Positions 9,561-21,337 of a stretch of 64,000 bases of DNA are shown here, in pieces. The stretch's first letter is position 1. Every line of letters starts with the position of its first letter. Under the pieces are notes generated by a model, which was given only the letters and a program-made list of their open reading frames with translations, was not told the DNA's origin and ran no database searches. The translations under genes and the position numbers were made by a program. This DNA comes from Methanotrichaceae archaeon (GTDB lineage: Archaea; Halobacteriota; Methanosarcinia; Methanotrichales; Methanotrichaceae). The DNA lies in the NCBI GenBank assembly GCA_013178225.1, contig JABLXE010000004.1, forward strand, positions 124,001 through 188,000, given 5' to 3'.

Positions 9561-9588
9561 CGGCAACAAGGCAAAAAGCAGTCACCGG

Positions 9589-9679
9589 GCCGCCGTGGCT
9601 TAGCCCGGTTAGAGCGGCTGATTCGTAAGTACAGTGCCGAAATATCAGCAGTTCATGGGTTCGAATCCCATCGGCGGCT
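9589..9679 (+). tRNA. tRNA-Thr(CGT) with a 16-nt intron
   Basis: A complete cloverleaf: acceptor GCCGCCG pairs with CGGCGGC (9672-9678), D-arm, anticodon stem GCTGA/TCAGC (9617-9621 and 9645-9649), 5-nt variable loop, T-arm ATGGG-TTCGAAT-CCCAT, discriminator U. The anticodon CGT is at 9624-9626, reading ACG. An intron at 9628-9643 sits at the canonical site after position 37; TTCG (9622-9625) pairs with CGAA (9638-9641), flanked by TAA and ATA bulges, which is an archaeal bulge-helix-bulge for the splicing endonuclease. The mature tRNA would be 75 nt without CCA; CCA is not encoded. Confidence 0.96.
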
Positions 9680-10031
9680 TATCATTTTCATCTCTTTCTT
9701 TTCAGCTCTTTTCCGGGAAAGATCGCTTCATATCATTCATTATATAACCGCATTCATGCTGTCGCTTCCCCGGGTAAAGGAGATGCGCACTGGTTTATCC
9801 GCGGCTTCGTCAGGGAATTCCGGCAGAATGAGCGGGCCGTTTCTGAAGATTTAATCAATAAAAATTTTAATAATATGATTCTCACCGAATTCAAGGTCAA
9901 TGCCATTTCTTGTTATCTTTCTCGGCTAGACAAGCGATAGGTATGTCTGGGACTGAGCCCGATATATAAAGCTTAAATACTACTACTATATATACTCCCA
10001 GTTTATAAGGGTTGACCGGAGATACCTGAGT
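9680..10031. other. Intergenic gap between tRNA-Thr and tbp
   Basis: Begins with a pyrimidine-rich stretch (9681-9702, many T residues) that would serve as the tRNA terminator. The middle has no convincing gene; a 32-codon ORF near 9758 lacks a fitting promoter. The last 70 bp hold the stacked TATA-like boxes of tbp. Confidence 0.5.
9961..9998 (+). promoter_or_regulatory. Stacked TATA-like boxes before tbp
   Basis: Within 38 bp there are three overlapping TATA-like elements: GATATATAAA (9961-9970), GCTTAAAT (9971-9978) and CTATATATA (9987-9995). Predicted transcript starts would be about 10000 and 10017, leaving a short leader before the ATG at 10032. Since the gene encodes TBP itself, autoregulation is possible but is only inferred. 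Confidence 0.5.
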
Positions 10032-19693: not shown

Positions 19694-20101
19694 TTAAGCG
19701 CTGACTTGAGTCTTTGCTATGTACTTTATCAGATCGGGAGCGATCCTGGATTTCATCTGGATCTCATCTGTGAGCTTATCAATTGGCTCACCGCTATCGG
19801 CCAAGGAGCGGATCTCCTTTATGGTAGCGTCGTCAACGGTGAAGTACTCATCCAGGTCTTTCCGGTGGCCCCAGACATCGCCCTCTAAAAGCTCGATTCC
19901 CTGCATGTCCAGAAACACCTTGATGGCATCGGAAAGGGTCCTCTTATAGGACGGAGGTGTCTGGATCACTCTCAGGCGGGGGCATCTCTGCATCAAGTTG
20001 AGGAAATCCACATTGGATGCTCTAAATGCCAAGTGTATTGCTTTCTCATTCTGGTTTAAATTCGAAATTTCGTCTCTTGCGCTAACTACTCTGAATCTCA
20101 T
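19694..20101 (-). CDS. DUF1699 family protein (methanogen-specific)
   Basis: 135 aa matching DUF1699 of Methanosarcinales: MRFRVVSARDEISNLNQNEKAIHLAFRASNVDFLNLMQRC, then the conserved QTPPSYKRTLSDA and the very characteristic FLDMQGIELLEGDVWGHRKDLDEY. The start is set at ATG 20101 behind GTGAGTGATAA; a longer reading to 20161 adds a non-conserved leader. Function unknown. The gene is transcribed away from the structured non-coding block further right. Confidence 0.82.
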   Translation of the reverse strand: MRFRVVSARDEISNLNQNEKAIHLAFRASNVDFLNLMQRCPRLRVIQTPPSYKRTLSDAIKVFLDMQGIELLEGDVWGHRKDLDEYFTVDDATIKEIRSLADSGEPIDKLTDEIQMKSRIAPDLIKYIAKTQVSA

Positions 20102-20387
20102 TTTATCACTCACAACCATATAATCCATCATATTATTAATAGACACTTTAGCTATACACATCTGTTAAAATTTCGATCCCCAATCCCGGTCTCACCAGAA
20201 GCAGTAGTGAAGAGAGACGAAAATTCCAGGAGGATCCTACAGCAAGTGCCTCCCATTTGGTCCCCAAATCCGGCGCCATGATGCTCAGCTATGATGCTCA
20301 ACCGAAAACTACTTGTATCAATAAGGGATAAATAGATAGTTTGCCGCGTTCTGCGCTGTTGAGGGCGAGAGCAGGCTTACCGGCTAA
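20102..20387. other. AT-rich intergenic segment, promoter region
   Basis: No ORF with support. Contains the DUF1699 promoter on the minus strand and, near its right end, GGATAAATAGATAG (about 20325-20338), a TATA-like element that could drive the structured RNA candidate on the plus strand. Confidence 0.45.
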
Positions 20388-20774
20388 GCTCATAGGGATG
20401 AGGCAATCGGCAGGCGGATCCTCCGTGGACGAGCCTGAGATAGCCCGAAATGTCCCAAAGAGGTGCTGTGCGGCTCGAACGTGCAGCATTCGGTGACGCC
20501 ACGGATGGTTTGAGGTCAAGCGGCCAAGATATATGCACGCCGTTACGGGCGTAGCATGCCACGGCTCAAGCCTTTCAAATCCGGCCCTCGCTAAACGGCC
20601 GGGGCGCGGCACAAGCTGCTGGCCGATAGGGCGGCGCTAGGCCCGAGATCCGGGTTCCTGTAAGAAGGGCACCGTGTTAAATTCCGGTGCTATACGCTCA
20701 GGAGGCGCAGCAGACTTTGTCGAGGCTCCGGGCGAGATCAGGCCATCACCTCAGGTGATAGGGCTCCTATGAGT
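20388..20774 (+). ncRNA. Candidate large structured non-coding RNA (about 390 nt), unassigned
   Basis: A GC-rich island inside AT-rich flanks with no plausible protein. Its ends are complementary: CTCATAGG (20389-20396) with CCTATGAG (20766-20773). Internal stems: TCCGTGG/CCACGGA (20422-20428, 20499-20505), CGAGCC/GGCTCG (20430-20435, 20472-20477), a hairpin at 20533-20557, CCGGCC/GGCCGG (20581-20602), CCCG/CGGG (20642-20654), GCACCG/CGGTGC (20669-20690) and ATCACC/GGTGAT (20745-20759). I looked for the RNase P core (GAGGAAAGTC, ACAGAA) and the SRP helix-8 motif and found neither. Strand is uncertain; plus is preferred from the TATA-like GGATAAATAG upstream. Confidence 0.55.
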
Positions 20775-20890
20775 AGGGCGCTGTGGATCGGTGCTGATCT
20801 CCCTGCGACTCGATTTCTCCTGATATTTTCAATTCATTTCCGCTGAGAAATTTGGGATCGAGCAGATACTTCCAGCCAAAAAACCAAGAT

Positions 20891-21337
20891 TCAGAGCCTC
20901 TTCTCCAGCTCGGGCAGGAATAGCTCCATGGAAGAGTTCCACTGCCGGCGCACATTCAGCCCTGAGAACTCGAATAGCACTGCCTCCACCACCAGATACA
21001 CCCCGGCTCTCTCCCTCACGCAGCCCAGCATCGCCTCCCGGCCTTTGCCCAGTGAGGAATGGATGTGCAGCCTGGGCCCTTCAGAAGATGGATAGATGGT
21101 GGCCATTCCAAAGACCTCCCAGCCCTCCCGGTACTCCTCCCAGTGGGGAACCGGCGGGATGGTGGGCTCTTCCGGCCCGGTCACGACCCGGCCTTCTTTT
21201 AGAGCGCCGATGAATAGCGCCATGCAGGAGGAGATCTCCATCTCGGAGACGAACTTCTTGAGCGAGGCGATCAGGTCCTCGCCGTCATCCAGGCGCAGGA
21301 CGAAGATCCTGCCTATGCGGCCTTCTGAATACTGCAT
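20891..21337 (-). CDS. PPC/DUF296 domain protein
   Basis: 148 aa matching the plant-and-prokaryote-conserved (PPC, DUF296) domain, a small trimer-forming fold found alone in prokaryotes and behind AT-hooks in plants. Seen: FVLRLDDGEDLIASLKKFVSEMEISSCMALFIGALKEGRV at the N-terminus, EVFGMATIYPSSEGPRLHIHSSLGKG in the middle with the His pair of the putative metal site, and VEAVLFEFSGLNVRRQW near the end. Role unknown; DNA binding is only suggested by family annotation. Confidence 0.85.
   Translation of the reverse strand: MQYSEGRIGRIFVLRLDDGEDLIASLKKFVSEMEISSCMALFIGALKEGRVVTGPEEPTIPPVPHWEEYREGWEVFGMATIYPSSEGPRLHIHSSLGKGREAMLGCVRERAGVYLVVEAVLFEFSGLNVRRQWNSSMELFLPELEKRL

Follow-up and report, generated by a model that had tools for sequence, protein, structure and literature searches.

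A candidate family of large structured RNAs with a duplicated three-hairpin module in Methanotrichaceae

Large non-coding structured RNAs are rare, and those that are understood include central machines. OLE is a large structured RNA that has protein partners. Type III toxin-antitoxin RNAs consist of repeated RNA units, which are sometimes encoded beside the gene for a protein of approximately 150 amino acids. Phages, prophages and bacteria encode the large ornate RNAs ROOL and GOLLD; in GOLLD the 3′ region is conserved and the 5′ region less so (PMC12286853).

Here we describe a locus in a 64,000 nucleotide stretch of a Methanotrichaceae genome (the window) that appears to encode an RNA of this kind. 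Like ROOL and GOLLD, the Methanothrix RNA is large, multi-domain and non-coding and is found in virus and cellular genomes, and as in GOLLD its 3′ part is conserved and its 5′ part less so. It differs from both in being archaeal, in matching no Rfam model, in its duplicated three-hairpin module and in being present in multiple copies per genome, and it is smaller than GOLLD. With OLE it shares the ornate, large and structured architecture and possibly the action in trans; the lack of an Rfam match sets it apart here too. Repeated RNA units and the location of some copies beside a protein gene recall the type III toxin-antitoxin RNAs, but here two modules of approximately 100 nt are combined with a distinct 5′ domain instead of short direct repeats, most copies are without a constant neighbour and no toxin family was identified. 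As a structured and presumably stable RNA it also resembles the archaeal RNase P and SRP RNAs, which fall in the range of 300-500 nt.

A 551 bp query (window 20300-20850) was run against 61 related genomes and matched 22 of them, all from the same family and frequently with several matches per genome. Profile searches extended these matches to full-length copies of approximately 450-570 bp. Altogether, 41 distinct full-length copies were collected, every one from Methanotrichaceae genomes or from one virus contig; the relatives with names are Methanothrix, Methanosaeta and Methanotrichaceae assemblies. Conservation spans the region from 20300, at the promoter, to approximately 20815 and drops beyond both limits, which shows that the interval 20388-20774 proposed in a first-pass annotation was too short. 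The inspection of homologous loci in related genomes that this annotation had recommended did reveal a conserved block with compensatory changes. Its description of the block as GC-rich also holds (GC content 0.61, compared to 0.55 in the whole window), but the AT-rich surroundings it mentioned are confined to the 5′ flank (0.45 in the 500 bp upstream, 0.58 downstream). T-rich 3′ ends are likewise present in the relatives. We are close to certain that the locus is a real RNA gene, and from its sequence we predict a stand-alone gene on the plus strand at 20300-20830 that comprises a promoter element, an RNA of approximately 20342-20815 and a T-rich end (Table 1).

Table 1. Features of the RNA locus and its divergent neighbour (window coordinates).
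Feature	Position	Strand	Basis and remarks
DUF1699 gene (PF08004)	19694..20161	-	Pfam E=9.4e-55; divergent neighbour, linked in several copies
Promoter element, BRE/TATA-like, ACCGAAAACTACTTGTAT	20301..20318	+	approximately 41 bp before the 5′ helix P1; near-invariant among copies
RNA gene	20342..20815	+	approximately 475 nt; conservation limits and consensus structure of 41 copies; exact ends predicted
Domain I	20342..20611	+	closed by P1 (20342-20354 with 20599-20611)
Domain I contents	variable arm 20389-20462, hairpin 20463-20489, hairpin 20533-20557	+	consensus structure
Domain II, first module copy	20630..20698	+	hairpins 20641-20655, 20656-20669 and 20670-20689, plus closing helix
Domain III, second module copy	20719..20814	+	long closing helix, hairpins 20741-20765, 20766-20777 and 20778-20794
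T-rich stretch, likely transcription end	20815..20829	+	after the last helix; predicted from the sequence

With at most one mismatch, the promoter element ACCGAAAACTACTTGTAT occurs in the 3-Mb genome at three of these RNA genes and at a single other site, which is located 41 bp before a tRNA gene and thus at the same spacing as from P1 here. A spacing of 41 bp is that expected of an archaeal BRE/TATA promoter. The TATA-like box noticed in the first pass exists, but not 25-30 bp before the paired region: it lies approximately 70-90 bp before 20389 and approximately 41 bp before 20342. The locus combines a promoter motif at the right distance with a discrete conserved RNA that has sharp limits of conservation, as expected of a stand-alone archaeal stable RNA. 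A cis-regulatory leader or a 3′ UTR element of a neighbouring gene would be suggested by the closeness of the neighbours, which are at times only 50-150 bp away; however, a conserved promoter element and a 3′ end belong to the RNA itself, both neighbours in the window are encoded on the opposite strand and the functions of the neighbours vary from copy to copy, which makes such a cis-element highly improbable.

The longest open reading frames in the 41 homologues are at the level found in shuffled sequences, and 814 of the 963 indels between these copies are not multiples of three. The indel lengths rule out a coding function, in agreement with the initial remark that the block has no protein reading. 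Among the paired cells of the alignment G-U combinations clearly outnumber A-C combinations (597 vs 119), which identifies the plus strand as the RNA.

A consensus structure was calculated with RNAalifold from the 41 copies, which support one structure with 102 pairs in three domains. In domain I, P1 is paired in 91% of cells and changed on both sides in six pairs; pairing is ambiguous around the variable arm and hairpin 20463-20489. The latter is conserved, as is hairpin 20533-20557, which is paired in 97% of cells; in domain III 93% of cells are paired. An AT-rich 5′ hairpin that RNAalifold placed at 20316-20338 was excluded from the structure because it lies within the promoter region. The 8 bp stem reported earlier between 20389-20396 and 20766-20773 can form in the window copy but was rejected for lack of conservation: of the eight pairs, four are present in only 9-16 of the 41 copies and a fifth in 23 of 39. 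Its arms belong elsewhere, 20389-20396 pairing with 20455-20462 and 20766-20768 with 20775-20777.

When 28 of the copies were aligned separately with MAFFT, the paired fraction of cells was 86.9%; it fell to 36.9-43.9% when the partners were shifted by 1-3 columns. In this alignment both sides have changed in 46 pairs and 170 cells (shuffle means 29.9 and 71.2), and none of 500 shuffles reached such values. On the tree approximately 42 compensatory double changes were counted, compared to 3-8 for slid or permuted partners, and 33 pairs have at least one; the structure and these counts come from the same or from overlapping sequences, which biases the counts in its favour. An R-scape-like G-test (with APC and a tree/parsimony-based null) of the 41 related copies yielded zero significant pairs, which we attribute to the clade-linked substitutions that dominate these sequences. 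The block thus withstands the refutation proposed in the first-pass annotation, the lack of a conserved block or of covarying pairs in related genomes, since its compensatory changes are far above the controls, with the reservation that the formal statistic shows no significant pair. By energy alone the window copy folds only somewhat better than shuffled sequences (z = -1.83; minus strand -0.38), and thus the case rests on the comparative evidence.

The loop of the last hairpin in domain III (20784-20789) is conserved and often reads GGAUC, which includes the palindrome GAUC. Loops of this kind form symmetric kissing contacts between chains in OLE and GOLLD, and a likeness to these loops is speculative.

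A covariance model built from domain III alone (R1) repeatedly matched paired sites approximately 100 nt apart on the same strand. The upstream match corresponds to domain II, and in one relative (L161) it reaches 37.6 bits (E=3e-9). The hairpin pattern GGGCGCUG...CAGYGCUG is likewise present in two copies, approximately 96-110 nt apart, in most RNAs examined. A second model built from both modules (R2) matches both of them in most RNAs; in the window it detects domain II with E=7.7e-9 and domain III with E=1.8e-14. These matches show that the 3′ half of the RNA is a tandem duplication of a cloverleaf-like module of approximately 100 nt with three hairpins. R1 also gave reverse-strand matches on module III (up to 24.8 bits), which were discounted because the stems are nearly symmetrical.

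Not all copies are built alike. One set of paralogues has a different domain I (L159-L161, L170, L173, L174) and another represents a further type (L162-L167, L171). Short forms contain modules without a recognisable domain I (L168, L172), one-module forms were found in the own genome (L169) and elsewhere (L175), and compact copies are without the variable arm, which is missing or shortened (L034, L054, L061). P1 varies between the types with its pairing kept, as read from the sequence of L159, where UUGUCGCAA pairs with UUGCGACAA. The RNAs form a superfamily of several types that includes compact and one-module forms.

Of 50 Methanotrichaceae genomes 34 had R1 matches, and no R1 match was found elsewhere among 238 genomes of the class. 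The distribution according to R2 was the same, with zero matches outside Methanotrichaceae in 394 genomes sampled from the phylum. Up to 13 R1 matches were counted in a single genome, module pairs being among them. Seven loci of the own genome carry modules according to R2, six of them both modules, and the RNA was found neither in the six sampled genomes of genus g6 nor in several other Methanotrichaceae genomes. Several loci have neighbours that are common to different species and are thus vertically kept. Pairs of RNA genes that are 2-7 kb apart or face each other were observed at L094 (on a 3.5-kb contig), L049, L193 and L194, which suggests local duplication.

The genes around the RNA vary in function and are located on either strand, and most copies are without a common neighbour gene; the RNA therefore looks like a transcription unit of its own. 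Two divergent relatives of the RNA, L169 (own genome, C13:56840) and L170 (C23:221690), are located just past the 3′ end of genes that by eye terminate in an apparent response-regulator receiver domain. At L167 a gene for an IS605-type transposase (with a tnpB-like C-terminus, by eye) ends immediately upstream of the RNA copy; this is apparently an insertion, the orthologues having other upstream sequences. tRNA genes are located near a few loci, with a frequency that according to a rough estimate is apparently no higher than chance. The window itself contains a tRNA-Tyr gene at 9588-9680, which probably has an intron, since its 93 bp exceed the length of a plain tRNA.

DUF1699 is the main recurring neighbour around 49 copies and the sole common partner found with Pfam and PADLOC. 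It adjoins the RNA in four copies of the own genome, divergently upstream, and in four species of another genus, upstream and in the same direction. In this other genus homologous blocks of approximately 1.1-1.5 kb end near the RNA and the DUF1699 gene, in flanks that are partly or wholly different. Since two different arrangements occur, a link between DUF1699 and the RNA is hinted at. RNA and protein might even be a two-component unit in which the RNA binds the protein or controls it, in the manner of an RNA antitoxin or RNA regulator, for example, and both the recurrent adjacency and the shared blocks would fit. We consider this unlikely: approximately 40 of the 49 copies have no DUF1699 gene nearby, many genomes of the class have the gene although the RNA was not found in them, and the string of short repeats of type III antitoxins is missing from the RNA. 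The protein itself gave no useful PDB match, its AlphaFold model is poor and the fold matches are meaningless. DUF1699 (PF08004) is strongly expanded in Methanosarcinales, with up to 19 genes per genome.

A full-length copy of the RNA was found on a 30.6-kb IMG/VR contig (L098 / G238) that encodes a major and a minor head protein, terminase, ParA and a tyrosine integrase, and the RNA is situated between parA and the integrase gene. The contig, which also encodes a repeat-rich ParB-like protein, likely belongs to a Methanothrix head-tail virus. The nearest relative of the virus copy in the tree is a copy from a chromosomal assembly (G031). A similarity search of annotated phage and plasmid collections found nothing, and a search of viral contigs with the module II pattern found nothing further. 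Being encoded by a virus, as described for ROOL and GOLLD, thus applies to one contig; the other copies are located in cellular genomes. The virus-borne copy, the patchy multi-copy distribution and copies in non-homologous flanks could also be expected of a mobile genetic element with an RNA that either drives transposition or accompanies it. Neither an encoded nor a consistently linked transposase or reverse transcriptase was found, though, and terminal repeats are not evident in the alignment; the vertically kept loci with their shared neighbours and the retention of structure by compensatory change speak against it as well, and we regard a mobile element as quite improbable.

To relate the RNA to known classes, Rfam was searched with permissive filters. 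The window copy of the element gave no match with E<1, and 11 divergent relatives and 14 paralogues of other types gave none at thresholds of E≤1 to 5. The models for ROOL, GOLLD and OLE matched neither the window copy nor these relatives and paralogues. An anti-hemB match at 21124-21200 scored 18.7 bits against a gathering threshold of 49.5 and was dismissed as chance. The RNase P RNA (RF00373; C8:10603-10908, E=2e-58) and the SRP RNA (RF01857; C12:22673-22988, E=3.5e-44) of the own genome are encoded elsewhere, and neither model matches the locus, in line with the first reading of the sequence, which had found neither the RNase P core sequences nor the SRP helix-8 motif. Assignment to a known class (RNase P, SRP, tmRNA or intron) as a divergent representative is favoured by size range and structure only; given the Rfam result, the separate RNase P and SRP genes and the multi-copy state, which is unfitting for these classes, it is extremely improbable. 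A full-text search, with most subscription journals outside its coverage, found no publication on such an RNA in Methanosaeta, Methanothrix or Methanosarcinales. The lack of Rfam matches and the compensatory changes support the early suggestion of a large structured ncRNA, possibly of a new class, and by comparison of sequences these RNAs appear to be a new family outside the known families.

We favour, as rather probable, the explanation that this is a stand-alone family of large RNAs of Methanotrichaceae that acts in trans like ROOL and GOLLD, including a mechanism as scaffold; most of the uncertainty comes from this mechanism, which is drawn by analogy. From the conserved promoter-like element, which would be a promoter of the tRNA type, a plus-strand RNA of approximately 475 nt with a variable 5′ domain and two tandem 3′ modules would be transcribed. 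The RNA would stay stable and act as a scaffold, either in an RNA-only assembly as for ROOL and GOLLD or in an RNP in which the repeated module may serve as a two-fold docking site. Its gene would be accessory; it would multiply and diverge in the host chromosomes and be carried by a tailed virus too. More tentatively, it might represent an independently evolved archaeal class of ornate RNAs, which spreads between a family of methanogens and its tailed viruses and forms RNA or RNP assemblies via the duplicated module. If this is true, RNA genes would gain and lose entire modules, and a single genome would contain one-module, two-module and compact forms side by side.

The locus would add an RNA family to the archaea, in the acetate-using methanogen Methanothrix. 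Copy number and sequence diversity are sufficient for solving the structure by comparison, and with the duplicated module the growth of large RNAs can be approached directly. The virus-borne copy makes it possible to test if such RNAs are of use to viruses, to hosts or to both.
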